Origin: Bacteriovorax sp. BAL6_X
GTDB taxonomy: Bacteria > Bdellovibrionota > Bacteriovoracia > Bacteriovoracales > Bacteriovoracaceae
Direction: 5' to 3'
NCBI RefSeq assembly: GCF_000443995.1
Contig: NZ_AUMC01000006.1
Span: 124,001-188,000 of the forward strand
Length of the DNA stretch: 64,000 nucleotides
Shown here piece after piece: positions 50,002 to 59,305 of this stretch. Position 1 is the stretch's first letter. The number at the start of each line of letters is the position of its first letter. Position numbers and translations under genes: made by a program. Below the pieces are notes generated by a model. It did not search any database. It was not told where the DNA came from and saw only the letters and a list, made by a program, of their open reading frames with translations.

Positions 50002-51630
50002 ATGAAAACTATTATCGCCATTTTCCTCTTAACTGTGAACGTATTCAATACGCAGGCTCAAACTATGCAAGATGAAAAAGTATTCTATTCAACGGTGACT
50101 CTGATTAGTGAAATTCAAGAAAGAGTCAATGAAGCAGGATATGATCCATTAAACAATGGCCAAAATATTAGAGAGCTCGAAAAAATAATAAATGCCAGTA
50201 ATAAACTTGTGAATGTTACAAAAGAATACTCTAATATTCTCTACCGACAAGCAAACAACGATAAACCTATTAAAGGTGCAGACCTGGCCATTTTTGCAAG
50301 ACTACTAGACACATTAATTCTAATTATGGAGAAATCAAGTCTTTACACAACTAAAAGCCTATCCAACAACCGTTCATATTCAGAATTAGAATATACACAA
50401 ATAAAGGTCACAAACCTGCTTGCAAAAATTAATTATGTAAATCTCTACTTGGTAGTTCATGACGTTTTTTATAAAAATCCAACAATAAAAAAATTATCGA
50501 AAGAGATAATTAAAATAATTGATGATGAAAAGAAGATTGAAATTATTAAACAATTCTCAAAAATTGCAGGAAGTGAAAGATTTAATCGTCAACTGCAAAA
50601 TGATATTAAACTATATATTGACTACCGCTACTACTATCTAAAACTACTAAACCCTGATTTAACAAGAGGTATTGTACTAATTGATAATTTTGAAATCGAA
50701 GAACGTTTTCTTGCAAAAAGAATTCCTGAAATAGAAATTAACGATGTTGGTGACTGGTTCACTGAAATCTTTAATCGAACGACGAACTTTGTCTCAGGAA
50801 TGTTTGGAAATCTTGTTGGAAAATTACGTTTCCGCCACGGTTATATGCATGAAAATGAAATGATTTTAAACGACCTTGAGTCCATACTTAAACCACTTGA
50901 TATTATTGCGGAGAAAACACCTTTTGCAGCAACAGACTTTTTTATTCCTGGCCACTTTGGTCATGTCGCAATTTATCTTGGAACAGAAGAGAAGCTAAAA
51001 AATGTAGGTCTTTGGAACACTCCTTTTATACAGCAGTACCACAACAAGATTCGAGCGGGTAAAGTTATTGTCGAGTCGATTAGACCAGGTAGTCGCCTTG
51101 CTTCACTTGAGGAATTTTTAGAAATCGATGAAATTACTATTATTCGTGAAAAAGGTATATTAGATAATAAGTGGACAAAGGAGATGGTAACGAAAGTCGC
51201 TCTTGAACAACTTGACAAGGAATATGACTTTAACTTTGATGTAACAACTCTTGATAAAGTTGTCTGCTCAGAAGTTCCATATCACGCATTTGGACACAAA
51301 AGGTGGCCAACAAGCTATATTCTAGGCAGAAATACAGTATCCCCAGATGAGATTATCGCGAATGCATATTATAAGGACTCTCAAATTGAGTTTATTAGTT
51401 CCATAAAAGCAAACGAAGAGCAAAGATTATTCAAAATTTCAAAAGAACAAATGGGAAATAATCTTGGTTTTGAATATGATAGCTCAAGAGATATATATAC
51501 GAAGATGTACAAATCATGTCGTTTAATAAAAATTGCAGATAGTGATCGCTACTCAAATATAAATGGTCGATATCGCACTTATAAAAAGTGTAAAATGAAC
51601 AAGAAGGACTTAATTTATAGCGCCTTCTAG
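50002..51630 (+). CDS. Exported YiiX-like permuted papain-fold hydrolase
   Basis: A 542-residue exported protein (signal MKTIIAIFLLTVNVFNTQAQ). Residues about 300-460 match the YiiX/YebB permuted NlpC/P60-like family: FIPGHFGHVAIYLGTEEKL, VIVESIRPGSRLASLEEFLE and DKEYDFNFDVTTLDKVVCSE with the nucleophile Cys (and the His from the GHFGHV segment). These enzymes hydrolyse peptides, cell wall amides or lipids. The N-terminal 300 residues are helical and unrecognised. Monocistronic, with an AGGACATAAA start site. Confidence 0.72.
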   Translation: MKTIIAIFLLTVNVFNTQAQTMQDEKVFYSTVTLISEIQERVNEAGYDPLNNGQNIRELEKIINASNKLVNVTKEYSNILYRQANNDKPIKGADLAIFARLLDTLILIMEKSSLYTTKSLSNNRSYSELEYTQIKVTNLLAKINYVNLYLVVHDVFYKNPTIKKLSKEIIKIIDDEKKIEIIKQFSKIAGSERFNRQLQNDIKLYIDYRYYYLKLLNPDLTRGIVLIDNFEIEERFLAKRIPEIEINDVGDWFTEIFNRTTNFVSGMFGNLVGKLRFRHGYMHENEMILNDLESILKPLDIIAEKTPFAATDFFIPGHFGHVAIYLGTEEKLKNVGLWNTPFIQQYHNKIRAGKVIVESIRPGSRLASLEEFLEIDEITIIREKGILDNKWTKEMVTKVALEQLDKEYDFNFDVTTLDKVVCSEVPYHAFGHKRWPTSYILGRNTVSPDEIIANAYYKDSQIEFISSIKANEEQRLFKISKEQMGNNLGFEYDSSRDIYTKMYKSCRLIKIADSDRYSNINGRYRTYKKCKMNKKDLIYSAF

Positions 51631-52627: not shown

Positions 52628-53731
52628 ATGACTAAAACAAATGAAACATTATTAAATGATTATCTATGCCCTCCAGGTTTTGGAGTATTCACAGTAAATA
52701 CTGCCAAGGAAAGAAAAGATAAGTTAACTAAAGTTCTCTATAACACAACTCAAGATCAAGATATCAAAACAGCTTGGACTAGTGAACTTTCAAAGCTTGC
52801 AGTTATTAATGGTTGCGCTATTTTAGGAGTAGCCTCTGACTGCGGCGGCGGAATTCAAAGAGGTGCAAACTGGGGGCCTTTATTTCTTAGAAATACACTA
52901 ATAGAAGAACATCTTGAAGTGTACCAGCAATGTTTTGACTTAGGAGATATTAGGGTAATACCTCACCTATTACACGATAAGTATTTAAATGACGAAACAA
53001 TAAAGAGTGCTCAGAATGCACTATACGGGGGAAAACAATTAAGTGTTTCTCCACTTAGTATTGCAAAAGCAAGTGTTGATGAAGTTTTCAAAATAAATAA
53101 AGAACTAAAGATCTTTAGTATTGGAGGAGATCACTCAGTGAGCTTTCCACTAGTTAAGGCCTGGATCAATAATCGTAGATCGCTTGGTAAGAAAGTTGGG
53201 CTTATTCACTTTGATGCACACACTGACCTTTTACGAGAAAGACTAGGAATTGATTACTGCTTTGGTTCATGGCTAACGCATGTATTAGATGATCTAGAAA
53301 CACCTAAGCATTGCTACCAATTTGGTATTCGCTCAACAGGAAAATCAAAAGAGCACTGGGAAAGTGAGTTTGGCCTAAATCAATACTGGGCCAAAGATGT
53401 AAAAGAGATTGGCGCAAAGGAACTAGCACTTAAAACAATTAAAGAACTTAAGGCACAAGGAATCGAAGAGATTTATATCAGTTTTGATATTGATGCCCTT
53501 GATGAAAGCGTAGCGAGTGCTACAGGAACACCTGAGCCAGAAGGGTTAATGCCACATGAGTGTGCTACAATGATTAAAGAGTTTACTAATGCCTTTAAGC
53601 TAACTGGTGCAGACATGGTTGAAATTGCTCCGCTAGTAGGTTTAAGCAAGGAAGGCTCTCGAACAACACTAGAAGTAGGAGCAGCAATGAGCTCTCTTAT
53701 GATGGAGGCCATGATTAGTGCCAATAATTGA
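52628..53731 (+). CDS. Arginase/agmatinase family ureohydrolase
   Basis: A 367-residue ureohydrolase. The binuclear manganese ligands are in SIGGDHSVSFPLVK, LIHFDAHTDLLRE and ISFDIDALDESVASATGTPE, the three signature motifs of arginase, agmatinase and formiminoglutamase. The protein has a longer N-terminal region than typical arginases (about 300). The exact substrate among arginine, agmatine and formiminoglutamate cannot be told. Second gene of the operon; the Aat gene starts 14 nt before its end. Confidence 0.85.
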   Translation: MTKTNETLLNDYLCPPGFGVFTVNTAKERKDKLTKVLYNTTQDQDIKTAWTSELSKLAVINGCAILGVASDCGGGIQRGANWGPLFLRNTLIEEHLEVYQQCFDLGDIRVIPHLLHDKYLNDETIKSAQNALYGGKQLSVSPLSIAKASVDEVFKINKELKIFSIGGDHSVSFPLVKAWINNRRSLGKKVGLIHFDAHTDLLRERLGIDYCFGSWLTHVLDDLETPKHCYQFGIRSTGKSKEHWESEFGLNQYWAKDVKEIGAKELALKTIKELKAQGIEEIYISFDIDALDESVASATGTPEPEGLMPHECATMIKEFTNAFKLTGADMVEIAPLVGLSKEGSRTTLEVGAAMSSLMMEAMISANN

Positions 53732-54416
53732 GTTTCCCCCAGTTGAGATCGCAGATGAGCAAGGGCTATTAGCAATTGGTGGAGACCTACACCATGACTC
53801 TCTCCTATTGGCCTATCAAAGTGGAATCTTCCCCTGGCCAATTTCCCAAGAGTATCCCCTTGCTTGGTTTTCACCCCCACAAAGAGGTGTTATTCGTTTC
53901 GACGACATTCAAGTAAGTCGCTCTCTAGCTAAATTTGTCAGAAAAAGTGACTGGACAATATCATTTAATCAAGACTTTTTAGAAGTTATCAGACAATGCC
54001 AAGAAGTTCACTCAGGCTCTTTAGAAGGTACATGGATTACTGACGAAATCATTGAAGGTTATTTTAATTTGTACCATCAAGATCTAGCCTATAGTGTAGA
54101 AGTTAGAGATGAGAAGAACTTACTTATTGGCGGGCTCTATGGAGTTAGCATGGGGCATTTCCTAAGTGGTGAGTCCATGTTCTACAAAGAGTCTAATGCT
54201 TCAAAGGTTGCCCTATTAGCAATTCTTTCAGTAGTATTAAGAAATCAGATTCCATTTCTTGATACTCAAATGGTGACACCTATTACTAAATCTTTTGGAG
54301 CGATTGAATTAGATCGTAGTATCTTTATAAGTGAAATTGAACAATTATTTAACCAAACACCTATCAAGTTTCCGCATACGAGAGTACCCGTAAAAGATCT
54401 ACTTAAGTCTTTTTAA
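53718..54416 (+). CDS. aat: Leucyl/phenylalanyl-tRNA-protein transferase
   Basis: A 232-residue enzyme starting with GTG (53718), overlapping the arginase-like gene by 14 nt. Text such as FPPVEIADEQGLLAIGGDLH, YQSGIFPWPISQEYPLAWFS, EGTWITDEIIEGYFNLYHQD and YGVSMGHFLSGESMFYKESN is highly characteristic. It transfers Leu or Phe from tRNA to N-terminal Lys/Arg, generating N-degrons for ClpS/ClpAP. Together with the Bpt gene at 12615 this indicates a fuller Leu/N-degron set. Confidence 0.94.
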   Translation: MPIIEFPPVEIADEQGLLAIGGDLHHDSLLLAYQSGIFPWPISQEYPLAWFSPPQRGVIRFDDIQVSRSLAKFVRKSDWTISFNQDFLEVIRQCQEVHSGSLEGTWITDEIIEGYFNLYHQDLAYSVEVRDEKNLLIGGLYGVSMGHFLSGESMFYKESNASKVALLAILSVVLRNQIPFLDTQMVTPITKSFGAIELDRSIFISEIEQLFNQTPIKFPHTRVPVKDLLKSF

Positions 54417-54490
54417 TTTTAAATATAAAGCGGCCCTCTTAAAAAAGATCGCAATACGCCAACGGCTTTGATAAATATTTTTAGATAGAA

Positions 54491-56008
54491 TCATTTTACA
54501 ATTTCCTCTTCACTAATACCTAAAGCATTCCATTCACAGGCAATTTGTGAAAGAGCGAATTTCTTTAGTCTCTTTGAGAAGTATTTTATATTTGCCATTG
54601 TCGGCGAAATTAAGTGAAAGCGATCGATTACACCATTATCTTTAAGATATGAAATTATTGAAATTTCACCTGAAGATACTTGTGTTGTCGCAAGAAATAT
54701 CCCCGTTTTTACCGGGCCAGCGCTTAGCTCAACATCTTTCCTTATAATAGGATATTCTTCACAAATTTTAATAATATTTGAATAGGTATTCTTTAATTCT
54801 TTTAGTCGAATTAATAGGAGTTCATAAGTTGTTCCATTCAAAGCGAGGAACTCAGTATTTATAAGATCGCTATATTCGTAGAAAGGCTCATACTTTTTAC
54901 TATTATAGTGATAACCATAGCTTTGAAGAGGCATCGACTTAAGTGAAAAGTCTAGGGCACCAAGATTTGAGTGGAAGTAGCTTTCTAAATTTAAAAAGTA
55001 CTTATTCCCTTCTATCGTCTGGATGATATCATTGATAATTTCCTGATAATCATGAATTCGATCTCTAATATCATAGACCCATTTACGATCTTCACAATTA
55101 ATTAATTCACCGAGCTCGTCTTTGGATTGCATCTTCGAAAGATTTGTTAAATTATTTAGTGTCTCAAATTGATAATTTAAAATTTGATGTAACTCTGTAA
55201 ATGATGACAGGTTAAAGACTTTCTCTAAACACTTTAGATTCTCAAGAGCACAAAGAATTTCATAAATAAACATACGATGAATTTTCACTGAACTACTTGT
55301 CTCTAGGTTTTCAATATACTCAGTTAGCTCAAGACATAACAAAGACGTGATACTCTTTAGAGGTAAATTTGATTTCAATAATAAGGAGATGGCCTCTTCT
55401 AGACTCTTCCCCTCAATTTTCTTTTCTAAAGATTCTGACTTACTAAAATCAAAATCAAAGTAGGTATCACTTATACGATTTTCATTGATATTAAAACGCA
55501 CTATAGAAGTAGAAAATGGATTATTAAACTTTTTAACCGGCACTTCGACTTCTTCACCTGTATTTTTTAAAGGTGAATGGTACGATTCACATAAAGAACC
55601 TTCGAGATTATCTTTTTCTAAGTGATACTTGCTAGCTGGTGTAATAACCTCATATTGTATACGGTCTTCTTTTCGATAAAAATGAACGCCAAAGTTTCGA
55701 TTAACTTCGGCCTCAAACCAAGTCATAGACTCAAACAAGTGAGCAAATGAAAGCGCTGTTTGTCCATAGCCTAATGAAAGGGCGTAGAAATATCTTTTGT
55801 GGTCATTCAAGTTTTGAAATTGGTAAATGAGTAAAAAGCGCGAGTTTAAAAGATTATACTTTTCCTTAAGCTCAGCTGCGTTTAAGAGATCAAGACATGA
55901 CAGGCCAGAGAAAACGATATGCTGATCATCAAAGTATGAAAGCATAAGCATTGAAAGCTCTGCTTTTGATTTTATCTGAATTTCATTCGTGATATCAAAA
56001 ATATTCAT
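54491..56008 (-). CDS. Degenerate NuoC-NuoD-like fusion (complex I 30-kDa/49-kDa subunit-like orphan)
   Basis: A 505-residue protein. The N-terminal 130 residues resemble NuoC: NSRFLLIYQFQNLNDHKRYF, then FESMTWFEAEVNRNFGVHFY (the WxExE-x-FG-x-x-F signature). The following part resembles NuoD: FNNPFSTSIVRFNINENRIS, then EKKIEGKSLEEAISLLLK in the place of GYLHRGIEK-x-EG, a helix KIHRMFIYEILCALENLKCL like the NuoD El-Ri helix, and at the end QVSSGEISIISYLKDNGVID followed by RFHLISPTMANIKYF. The His of the quinone site motif is absent. It is about 90 residues shorter than E. coli NuoCD. No other nuo gene is near. The gene lies 16 nt after a lipoprotein gene. Homology is inferred from motif order and is not backed by a database search; an electron-transfer role is not likely without the missing residues. 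Confidence 0.6.
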   Translation of the reverse strand: MNIFDITNEIQIKSKAELSMLMLSYFDDQHIVFSGLSCLDLLNAAELKEKYNLLNSRFLLIYQFQNLNDHKRYFYALSLGYGQTALSFAHLFESMTWFEAEVNRNFGVHFYRKEDRIQYEVITPASKYHLEKDNLEGSLCESYHSPLKNTGEEVEVPVKKFNNPFSTSIVRFNINENRISDTYFDFDFSKSESLEKKIEGKSLEEAISLLLKSNLPLKSITSLLCLELTEYIENLETSSSVKIHRMFIYEILCALENLKCLEKVFNLSSFTELHQILNYQFETLNNLTNLSKMQSKDELGELINCEDRKWVYDIRDRIHDYQEIINDIIQTIEGNKYFLNLESYFHSNLGALDFSLKSMPLQSYGYHYNSKKYEPFYEYSDLINTEFLALNGTTYELLLIRLKELKNTYSNIIKICEEYPIIRKDVELSAGPVKTGIFLATTQVSSGEISIISYLKDNGVIDRFHLISPTMANIKYFSKRLKKFALSQIACEWNALGISEEEIVK

Positions 56009-56024
56009 CTATTTAATTTTCCAA

Positions 56025-57371
56025 TTACTTTAAATTAAGTCTTACATCGTATGGAAAGATTGTCTCAACTTCTTTATCTGGAGCACAACTTTGTTTCTTC
56101 CCATTTGACCACACCCAATTATATATCTTTTGATTGAATGTGTCTGCACCACTATCGTATTCAATATAACGATAATAAGGGGCCCCTGAGTTAGCAGCAC
56201 TAGATAATAATGTGACAGCTGCAGGAAATGAAGCTGCAATTTCACGATCGCGACATCCCCCAATTAATTTTCTTTGATCGACAACAAATCTACCTTTGCT
56301 ATCCCTAACATTACGTACCCATGTCTTTAAACGACAGTCAAAATAGTAGCCTGTTTGAACTGCATTTTCAAAGGCCGTTAAAAATTCCAGCTTCCAATGC
56401 TTATCCTTCTCCTTTTGAATATTAAAAGGACGCACATACTTTCGACATAAACTAAAACGATCAAGGTGGTTACGATAAAACTCAACAAATCGTTGAGAGA
56501 TCCCTTCTTCTTTACTAAAAATTACAAGGGCATCATCGTATACCTTACGACATGAAGTTTTCAATGTTTGCAATTCACTGTTAGTAAACAAGTGGCCAGA
56601 GTTGATAACATACTTAAGAGCACGATTAGGTAGGATTGGAGATTCTAAACGATAGGCACCCTTAAGCTTTCTCCCCACATCATTACGCCCCATTGAATTT
56701 TCAATAAAAGCCTTCGCATATTTCCAGTCCACATACTTCTTTAGGGAATTTAGCCCTTGGACCTCTTGAAGAGACTCATCAAGCATGCTCTTTGCTATTA
56801 GAATGACTTCTGAGTTCCAGTCATCATTTAAGTCACAAAGTCCTGTTAAGCAAGACTTTAAGATATGGCCACCGATGATTTGAACTTGAATGGTTTCTTC
56901 ACGTGGGAAGCTACCATCAACAAGGTATTTTAAGTCACCGAAGACGGCCACACGCTGAGGCTTTCCATTTCGCCCCAGAAGTCTTGGGATAACGGCCCAA
57001 GAAAAGTTTGGAGTTGATATATTTGATGTGTAATCATTCCAAATATCTTTTTCTTTGCAAAATTTACGCTCTTTAAAAATTCGACCACTAACTAAGTCAA
57101 GTTCGAAATGAACCTCACTATCACGGGGCGTTGTAATAAAGACGTCAACAAGCTTAGTACGCATATCCATACGTGGTGCAAAGTCGAAAAATAAGTGAGG
57201 AACGACTCTCCCCTCATAAGTTAGATAATTGAAATTACCTTCTCCTGAAAACCAAGTCGGCTTAACCTGAGAAGTTGGTAGTACAATTTTTTTTGTTGCA
57301 CATCCAACAATGAAAATTACAAGTAAAAGAAAAATGAATTTAGTAGTTTTTTTGAATTGACAAATATACAC
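56025..57371 (-). CDS. Large lipoprotein of unknown function
   Basis: About 448 residues if a GTG at 57371 is used. The lipobox FIVGC in FIFLLLVIFIVGCATKK is about 20 residues from this start. Earlier in-frame codons would run into the divergent tRNA gene, so they are rejected. The mature part has many cysteines (FCKEKDIWND; SCLTGLCDLNDDWNSEV; TSCRKVYDDALVIFSKEEGI; FSLCRKYVRPF; FDCRLKTWVRNVRD) and an aspartate/tyrosine-rich end. No family recognised. The NuoCD-like gene follows at 16 nt. Confidence 0.65.
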   Translation of the reverse strand: MYICQFKKTTKFIFLLLVIFIVGCATKKIVLPTSQVKPTWFSGEGNFNYLTYEGRVVPHLFFDFAPRMDMRTKLVDVFITTPRDSEVHFELDLVSGRIFKERKFCKEKDIWNDYTSNISTPNFSWAVIPRLLGRNGKPQRVAVFGDLKYLVDGSFPREETIQVQIIGGHILKSCLTGLCDLNDDWNSEVILIAKSMLDESLQEVQGLNSLKKYVDWKYAKAFIENSMGRNDVGRKLKGAYRLESPILPNRALKYVINSGHLFTNSELQTLKTSCRKVYDDALVIFSKEEGISQRFVEFYRNHLDRFSLCRKYVRPFNIQKEKDKHWKLEFLTAFENAVQTGYYFDCRLKTWVRNVRDSKGRFVVDQRKLIGGCRDREIAASFPAAVTLLSSAANSGAPYYRYIEYDSGADTFNQKIYNWVWSNGKKQSCAPDKEVETIFPYDVRLNLK

Positions 57372-57379
57372 GTTATAGT
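57352..57379 (+). promoter_or_regulatory. Promoter of tRNA-Leu gene
   Basis: TTGAAT (57352-57357), 16-base spacer, and TATAGT (57374-57379) precede the tRNA by about 25 bases, a suitable housekeeping promoter. Confidence 0.5.
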
Positions 57380-57403
57380 CCAAAATCGTTAAACACAAAT
57401 AGC

Positions 57404-57490
57404 GGTTCGGTGTTGGAATTGGTAGACAATCTGGATTTAAAATCCAGTGGGGGCAACCCCGTGCGGGTTCAAGTCCCGCCCGAACCACCA
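57404..57490 (+). tRNA. tRNA-Leu (anticodon UAA)
   Basis: An 87-base class II tRNA. The acceptor stem GGTTCGG (57404-57410) pairs with CCGAACC (57480-57486), followed by discriminator A and encoded CCA. The anticodon arm is CTGGA-TTTAAAA-TCCAG with anticodon TAA, there is a long variable arm (GGGGGCAACCCC), and a T arm GCGGG-TTCAAGT-CCCGC. It decodes UUA. Confidence 0.97.
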
Positions 57491-57583: not shown

Positions 57584-59305
57584 TTATGCAGCTTTAATTG
57601 ACTCGTCATTATTATTAAGAATTTCAATCATTCGCTCCCCAATCACTTCCATGATCGAGTCCGATACAGATTCAAAGCGCATTCCAAAGCCTCTAGGACG
57701 ATTCTTTGAAGCTCTCATAATAGTGAAATCAACTGCGATAGCGCGCCCAAAAAGCCCCTCTGAGATATAGATTGTGCCACGAGTATTTTTGTCAAATTCT
57801 TTTTCAAATTTTGTAACTTCAATAAATCCCCCACTGAGGGAAAGATTTGTCAGGTAGCCCTTGTACTCTTTTTGAACTCCGACAAGTGAAAATGAAATCA
57901 ATTCTTGAAGATCAACTCGGTATTCAGTTCTTTCAATTAGATACTTATTATTTTCTGGATTTTCTTTATCTTCTGAAACCAATTTCGCTTGCGTATTAAG
58001 TTCAAGGCACTCTTTAGCGGCAACCCATGTGGCACCGGCCTTCCTTTTAACAAGTGTTTCAGGCGTAATAATGTTCTTTTCTAAATCAACTAGCATTTCA
58101 TCAAAGCGTAAGGGCCCAACAACACCGGCACCTGTGTCATATTGCCATGACTTCTTATTTGAGATTTCGAAAGACTTACCATTCTTAAGTCCTTCAATAT
58201 TTAGGCGATCAAGTTCTAAATCATCAACTTGAGCACGAGTTGCTATTTCAAGGCCACCACTTGAAATATCAAACTCTCCAGTAGCTTCTTCACTTAAGTC
58301 GATCTCAACAGTACGGTCCTCATCTTCTAAAGTAAGAGAGTTACGTGAAATAAGATTAATCTTAGGCCCAGCACTTTTTGCTTCGTGTAGTAGTGACACA
58401 TCTTCAATTTTCACTTCTTCATTAACTGCAGAAATACCGATTTTACTATCTGTATAACTCTTAAAATTTTCTAATTCTTTTTCAGCGACTTCAAGCTTTG
58501 CATTTAAGGCCTTGGCCTTTGCAATTACCTTTGAAAGATTCTTTCTTGCAATTTTATTTTCAACGGCAAGGTTTTTATATTTAATTTTTAAAGCATTAAA
58601 CTTCGATTGATATTCTTGAGAGTTTGAGTTTCCATCTTCCAGCTCACGTGCCGTCGATAAAACTTTTGTAATTTTACGATTAACATCACTAATAAGATGT
58701 GTTTCATCTAAGATTGACTCTAACTTACCAATAATCACATCACTTCGGTCACTACTTGATGAGCCAACCAGTTGAGTAATGTCTCCAATTCTCTCTTCTA
58801 CACTCGAGATCTTTTGACTAAACTCTTCTCGAAGTTGATCTCCGATTGTAGATATTTCATCTTTAACAATTTTAGAAATTGCGTTTAGTAATTCATTATT
58901 ATGAGTACTCTTCCCCACTAACTCTTCTTTTTTAATACTGTATCCGTCTGGCGCAGAGACTGGCCTTTCAAATACTTCGGGGCTTGGCCTTAAAGCATCA
59001 ATCACAACTCGAGGAAAACTCATCTTAGATAACTCAAGCCACTGTGACTTCTTAACATCAAAACCAAATTGATTAGAGAAAACGACACCAGAGAGCGCTT
59101 CAACGTAGAGATCATTAATATCGATCTCTCTAAAAGTTGTGAATGTATCTGCTATAAAGATTTTCTTCAATATATCCTCAGCTGTTCTAACTAGTATATC
59201 GGTAAGATTTAAACTAAAATTTAATAATATTAGTAGTTTACTCTGTTTTTGTTTACAAACTTCTATTTGAGAGATGATAAGGTATTGAATTGTGGAAACT
59301 TCCAA
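57584..59305 (-). CDS. Multi-domain protein with coiled coil, GYF-like and C-terminal PilZ domains
   Basis: Up to 573 residues; the true start is likely downstream of 59305, as that ATG overlaps the divergent methyltransferase gene. The N-terminal half has a Leu/Glu coiled coil (KISSVEERIGDITQLVGSSS; LKIKYKNLAVENKIARKNL), and the third quarter has a GYF-like (GYF_2) segment: KSWQYDTGAGVVGPLRFDEM ... GATWVAAKECLEL. The C-terminal 110 residues are PilZ-like: YRVDLQELISFSLVGVQKEY ... LSLSGGFIEVTKFEKEF and PRGFGMRFESVSDSI. The classical RxxxR-x-DxSxxG is only partly kept (LSLSGG matches), so c-di-GMP binding is uncertain. Possible motility or predation signalling protein. Confidence 0.7.
   Translation of the reverse strand: MEVSTIQYLIISQIEVCKQKQSKLLILLNFSLNLTDILVRTAEDILKKIFIADTFTTFREIDINDLYVEALSGVVFSNQFGFDVKKSQWLELSKMSFPRVVIDALRPSPEVFERPVSAPDGYSIKKEELVGKSTHNNELLNAISKIVKDEISTIGDQLREEFSQKISSVEERIGDITQLVGSSSSDRSDVIIGKLESILDETHLISDVNRKITKVLSTARELEDGNSNSQEYQSKFNALKIKYKNLAVENKIARKNLSKVIAKAKALNAKLEVAEKELENFKSYTDSKIGISAVNEEVKIEDVSLLHEAKSAGPKINLISRNSLTLEDEDRTVEIDLSEEATGEFDISSGGLEIATRAQVDDLELDRLNIEGLKNGKSFEISNKKSWQYDTGAGVVGPLRFDEMLVDLEKNIITPETLVKRKAGATWVAAKECLELNTQAKLVSEDKENPENNKYLIERTEYRVDLQELISFSLVGVQKEYKGYLTNLSLSGGFIEVTKFEKEFDKNTRGTIYISEGLFGRAIAVDFTIMRASKNRPRGFGMRFESVSDSIMEVIGERMIEILNNNDESIKAA

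Follow-up and report, generated by a model that had tools for sequence, protein, structure and literature searches.

A divergent NuoC-NuoD fusion protein in Bacteriovorax and the degenerate second complex I of its family

The window analyzed here is a stretch of 64,000 nucleotides on contig C6 of the genome of Bacteriovorax sp. BAL6_X, whose 3.23-Mb assembly is 99.98% complete. On its minus strand, a reading frame of 505 amino acids without internal stops encodes a NuoCD-like protein, designated CD'. The features around it, in window positions, are as follows.

53718-54416, plus strand: aat (Leu/Phe-tRNA-protein transferase; Pfam Leu_Phe_trans, E 2e-56), the convergent neighbour, outside the complex.
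54399-54494, minus strand: NuoI-like remnant (I') of 31 codons, MILSKNIYQSRWRIAIFFKRAALYLKLKRLK, a weak family-HMM match at the expected position.
54491-56008, minus strand: CD' (NuoCD-like, 505 aa), listed as a peripheral-arm subunit of a degenerate second complex I (CI-2) from profiles, an AlphaFold model, structure matches over both halves, a tree, and synteny.
56025-57395 (open reading frame to 57491), minus strand: Cys-rich lipoprotein gene, beside CD' in 36 genomes and characterized by a model, Foldseek, VIA, and PDB profiles.
57404-57490, plus strand: tRNA-Leu (TAA), found by ARAGORN, the upstream boundary of the cassette, outside the complex.

The I' remnant overlaps the stop of CD', its N-terminus resembles the MILxKxLY of intact copies, and its match to the family NuoI-like HMM is weak (13 bits, E 0.0018). 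The first 29 codons of the longer lipoprotein reading frame overlap the tRNA-Leu gene. Because only 16 bases separate the lipoprotein gene from CD' in this genome, there is no NuoB-like gene between them. In other words, of NuoB with its four N2 cysteines and NuoI with its two 4Fe-4S motifs, the locus holds only the 31-codon remnant, and the canonical NuoB and NuoI copies on contig C10 belong to the other complex, not to CI-2. Directly upstream of the lipoprotein gene lies a gene for a GYF_2 and PilZ (c-di-GMP type) protein (57584-59305, minus strand), a position common to the genus and to some other genomes of the family. A 542-aa reading frame with a signal-like N-terminus (50002-51630, plus strand) recurs close to the cassette in roughly half of the family loci read.

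CD' is a divergent NuoC-NuoD fusion. As a single sequence it gives weak Pfam matches in the order C then D, to Complex1_30kDa at residues 33-115 (E 0.0044) and to Complex1_49kDa at residues 308-419 (E 0.0081), with scores of 18 and 15.7 bits that lie below the curated cut-offs of 22.5 and 24. The NCBIfam models for NuoD (PRK12322, E 8e-7) and NuoCD (PRK11742, E 3e-5) also match, the best score of 28.3 not reaching the curated cut-off of 522. A family profile that includes CD' aligns over the full length with the NuoCD of E. coli and Aquifex (E ~1e-103) and matches 7awt_D with an E of 5e-103. The AlphaFold model (mean pLDDT 74, pTM 0.80) was made from an alignment of 12 sequences that took in canonical-like CI-2 rows, from which the model may have profited. 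It matches E. coli NuoCD across both halves in Foldseek (E 2.8e-16, TM 0.76) and over 468 residues in VIA (Z 33.5, 3.7 A, model residues 5-505), in lists of matches that are in themselves no proof against other folds. The domain order of NuoC then NuoD, with the matching fold, is found by Foldseek, by VIA, and by the family profile.

The first-pass annotation, made from the letters alone, had proposed a degenerate NuoCD-like fusion beside a lipoprotein gene and a tRNA gene, and the ordered profile matches and the model bear this out; the structural comparison suggested along with it ended in the match over both halves. The NuoC-type segment MTWFEAEVNRNFG and the C-terminal NuoD-like stretch SSGEISIISYLKDNGVID are present in CD' as it had quoted them. 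It had also reported that the His of the NuoD motif GYLHR is missing, and the quinone-site columns of the window CD' indeed have Ser for this His (GYLHRG), as well as Leu for the Tyr of DRxxY.

A CD'-like gene stands beside the same Cys-rich lipoprotein gene in 36 genomes of the family, including that of the window. The relatives include Bacteriovorax sp. MedPE-SWde of the same genus (G059), Bacteriovorax sp. BSW11_IV (G056), and several Bacteriovoracaceae and Halobacteriovoraceae MAGs. The cassette typically runs lipoprotein, NuoB-like, NuoCD-like, NuoI-like, and in most of the 36 genomes it adjoins aat, which served as the synteny anchor, an agmatinase-like gene, and map. Scanning relied on the alignment of a conserved neighbour, the lipoprotein alignment containing no sufficiently conserved stretch; the P0001 scan of the genome contigs gave no match. 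In two genomes, G014 and G031, the cassette is a complete canonical set, lipoprotein-B-CD-E-F-G-I, with canonical ligands and a NuoF that exceeds the curated cut-off, and the full set of G031 adjoins aat and the agmatinase-like gene (L208). G005 still has degenerate E, F, and G, whereas F- and G-like proteins are left in G044 and G-like proteins in G029. The NuoE-, NuoF-, and NuoG-like proteins of G005 lie between CD' and NuoI' (L043:10681-13489) and have partly lost their cofactor motifs. Only CD' and the lipoprotein are left in G015 and G025, and the lipoprotein alone in G006, G018, and G030. The window locus is an extreme case, with B' absent and I' cut short. In a tree of the D part, all CD' proteins group with the CI-2 proteins, apart from canonical NuoD (support 0.998), and the window CD' forms a very long branch.

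The genome of the window also contains canonical complex I genes, about which the first-pass annotation had asked: nuoB-C-D-I on contig C10 (L056:6238-9030) and nuoA-H-J-K-L-M-N on contig C9 (L087:11480-19208). Since no NuoF was found anywhere in the assembly, this canonical complex appears to be of the 11-subunit type, split over two contigs. Directly after the canonical nuoA-N genes, in the window genome as in others, come seven degenerate transmembrane genes, designated A', H', J', K', L', M', and N'. On C9 they encode 99, 258, 148, 90, 428, 279, and 327 aa, and five of their six junctions overlap by 4-20 bases, the first being a 74-base gap. Hence the claim that CD' is an orphan outside any nuo operon holds in so far as it lies outside the canonical operons. 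It is an orphan only locally, however, since the same spot in relatives has NuoB- and NuoI-like and in some cases NuoE-, NuoF-, and NuoG-like genes, and it is not isolated in its own genome, which retains the degenerate arm on another contig.

In G014, a second complete set, with every key residue in place, comes directly after the canonical nuoA-H-J-K-L-M-N; in G033, G040, G022, G020, and G037, the second set is recognizable but eroded; and most other genomes have seven shrunken hydrophobic reading frames at the same place, between nuoN and a gene for a TPR protein. Profile comparison of the intermediates with their canonical partners gave, on the diagonal, 99.9% for H, 99.0% for N, 98.2% for L, 95.5% for K, 92.8% for M, and 56% for A, with no match for J. 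With the intermediates left out of the query, NuoH is still found by fully degenerate H' at 95.9% (E 5e-9), and J' reaches 82% (E 1e-5). Comparison of fully degenerate L', M', N', and A' with the canonical subunits by hhalign gave no signal. Position, order, and hydrophobicity are the only basis for assigning L', M', and N' of the fully degenerate group, and L' and M' of the window genome, to NuoL, NuoM, and NuoN, their sequences no longer matching; the A', K', and N' of the window genome are identified by position and by congener profiles (E 2e-14, 1e-11, and 4e-26). Searches for arm homology with phmmer --max on tiny sets were discarded as noise. The TPR protein (about 1050 aa; L087:3339-6509 on C9 in the window genome) follows the degenerate arm and is conserved in the family. 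Because its gene is also present where the arm is gone, it is not specific to the arm, and the idea that the GYF and TPR neighbours point to gliding motility was dropped. A candidate electron-donor cluster near the arm of G009 in fact consists of the housekeeping genes mfd, surA-like, gyrA, and atpB.

The lipoprotein occurs in 47 of the 57 genomes of the family, including genomes that have lost CD'. Its model (pLDDT 82) has the fold of a family I pyrophosphatase, by Foldseek (E 8.5e-9) and by VIA (Z 18.5, 2.7 A over 179 aa), and all five of its PDB profile matches are pyrophosphatases (best E 0.006), which is independent support from sequence. The catalytic Asp triad (DGDPVD) is absent; at the aligned positions the family profile reads QLGKPQK and the window lipoprotein RNGKPQR. 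Because this pseudo-pyrophosphatase outlives CI-2 in G006, G018, and G030, its role need not depend on CI-2.

We consider it probable, at about 0.7, that CD' is a subunit of a once-complete CI-2 that is now a selected, non-redox, non-pumping membrane complex with a putative new function. The support for this reading comes from the homology and fold of CD', the series of gene sets, the erosion of ligands in relatives, the joint retention of the two loci, and the low rate of nonsynonymous change.

Among the genomes in which both loci were readable, CD' and the arm occur together in 40, CD' alone in two (G024 and G047), the arm alone in none, and neither in three (G006, G018, and G032, with CD' judged by profile), which gives p=7e-4 in a strict Fisher test. 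The 40 include arms cut by contig ends or reduced in G058, G026, G038, G004, and G025. Adding presumptive absences (G001, G003, and G046 without the arm, G036 and G013 with it), in which the lack of CD' is judged from P0001 and lipoprotein searches only, changes the counts to 40/2/2/6 (p=5e-5); both p values are indicative only, because the genomes are related. In G036 and G013, the latter 66% complete, the arm occurs without a detected lipoprotein or CD'. The unlinked soluble and membrane parts of CI-2 are, in other words, kept or lost together. Canonical NuoD and NuoH are both missing from five genomes (G009, G043, G011, G015, and G055) in which CD' and the arm nevertheless persist. In G022 and G037, CD' is accompanied by a NuoH of the degenerate kind only, and G038 (84% complete), in which the arm is cut by a contig end, resembles these two.

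This retention bears on the rival that survives best, namely that CI-2 became redundant and its genes are drifting to loss, as a decaying relic that is functionless in the window genome. A relic was one of the two fates that the first-pass annotation had envisaged, and the stepwise loss of subunits (EFG, then B and I, then all but the lipoprotein in G006, G018, and G030), the rapid divergence of L', M', and N', the very long branch of the window CD', and its truncated NuoI' are in line with it. Nevertheless, we regard it as unlikely, because the CI-2 set is retained in genomes that lost canonical complex I, the CD' reading frames are intact in all genomes read despite identities of 15-30%, and nonsynonymous change is far below synonymous change. 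For CD', pN is 0.22 against a pS of 0.74 between G058 and G059, where its divergence is close to that of the neighbouring aat, and 0.19 against 0.71 between G002 and G049. B' and I' are likewise constrained, and L', M', and N', the fastest, still have pN below pS; as dS is saturated, these values place a bound on omega and do not measure it. The membrane reading frames, moreover, overlap as in a coupled operon, which also speaks against drift. The other fate envisaged at first pass, a repurposed subunit, is probably right.

It is also conceivable that CD', together with A'-N', helps to assemble the canonical complex I or enters it as an alternative, inhibitory subunit. The degenerate arm directly follows the canonical nuoA-N in many genomes, so that co-expression is plausible, whereas at least five genomes that lack canonical NuoD and NuoH still have CD' and the arm, and G001, G003, G032, and G046 have canonical membrane genes without the degenerate arm. 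On balance such a role seems quite improbable.

The erosion of functional residues bears on a further alternative, in which CI-2 would still be a redox enzyme, in the window genome too, with an altered donor or acceptor, taking electrons from ferredoxin or flavodoxin and passing them to an acceptor other than quinone. Only 5 of 35 CD' proteins retain the quinone Tyr. Even where it is gone, redox ligands can persist: all four N2 cysteines are kept in 18 of 30 NuoB', and both 4Fe-4S motifs in 19 of 29 NuoI'. A full complement of N2 and N6 ligands survives in several relatives, which may therefore still be redox-active and transfer electrons. Of the aligned second-arm sets, only those of G014 and G031 have both the E-channel of H and the Lys and Glu of L, M, and N fully intact. 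The window H' aligns without the residues of ETNRAPFD and EAESELV; the window L', M', and N' are not alignable, and the pump residues are eroded in those relatives that can be aligned. With no NuoB-like gene at the window locus, a NuoI' of 31 codons, and a CD' without the quinone-site His and Tyr, a redox enzyme is very improbable here. A group 4 [NiFe]-hydrogenase large subunit, and with it the hydrogenase relic suggested at first pass, is not supported, because CD' has no CxxC pair for NiFe in its 505 residues and the tree places it with the NuoCD of the second complex I.

The reading of CD' as a subunit of a selected pseudo-complex can be set out as follows. The family would once have had a complete CI-2, comprising B-CD-E-F-G-I and the membrane arm A-H-J-K-L-M-N, which in most of the family would have lost the NADH module and also, more in some members than in others, the quinone Tyr, the ligands of the Fe-S clusters N2 and N6, the E-channel, and the Lys and Glu of the pump, its subunits presumably remaining intact, selected genes despite these losses. 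The window genome would be left with CD' and the seven shrunken A'-N'. We infer that the CI-2 proteins assemble, are inactive, and have a new role. Most likely, CD' would dock on A'/H'/J' as the cytoplasmic docking subunit of a membrane-anchored, non-redox, non-pumping complex, which may serve as a scaffold or a channel, with the neighbouring secreted pseudo-pyrophosphatase lipoprotein as a possible partner. That a whole complex I, with both arms, has become a selected pseudo-complex without redox centres or a pump, for a new non-bioenergetic membrane function, we hold to have a slightly better than even chance.

Textbooks present complex I as a redox-driven proton pump. The open-licence literature searched contained no report of a complex I that had lost its redox and pump residues and was still under selection. 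If the interpretation is true, one family spans the whole course from an intact second enzyme to a set that is without cofactors and pump residues yet still selected, with all stages in between. Such a natural series would be of use in studying assembly and the order in which functions are lost, and would reveal which elements of the architecture have value even when no electrons are transferred. CI-2 could also reveal a new membrane machine in Bacteriovorax-type bacteria.

Among known systems, E. coli NuoCD (PDB 7p7j_C and 7p64_C) shares with CD' the two-domain C-D fusion and the fold, over 468 aligned residues. CD' also keeps the Glu-x-Glu of NuoC, which has been reported to be important for complex stability (PMC7050243). 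On the other hand, CD' has only about 11% identity to E. coli NuoCD, has lost the quinone His and Tyr, has no adjacent N2-bearing NuoB, and belongs to a complex whose genes are split between two loci. HycE, subunit 5 of formate hydrogenlyase (7z0s_E), has a similar C-D fusion fold (Foldseek E 1.7e-13), whereas CD' lacks the CxxC cysteine pairs of HycE and the group 4 [NiFe]-hydrogenases, and its ancestry lies with the NuoCD of CI-2. The lipoprotein shares fold and profile matches with soluble family I inorganic pyrophosphatase, and differs from it in its lipoprotein signal, an invariant Cys, an extra C-terminal part, and a QLGxPQ-type sequence in place of DGDPVD. An 11-subunit complex I without NuoEFG has already been described (PMC11238625). 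Loss of the NADH module is common to that enzyme and CI-2, and the canonical complex I of the window genome looks alike, but the 11-subunit enzyme retains the Q-module clusters, the quinone site, and the pump, whereas the CI-2 described here does not. Two complex I isozymes in one bacterium are likewise already known: Rhodobacter sphaeroides (PMC4859585) has two phylogenetically distinct sets per genome, as do G014 and G031. Both R. sphaeroides isozymes are catalytic, whereas the second complex I described here is eroded in most species.
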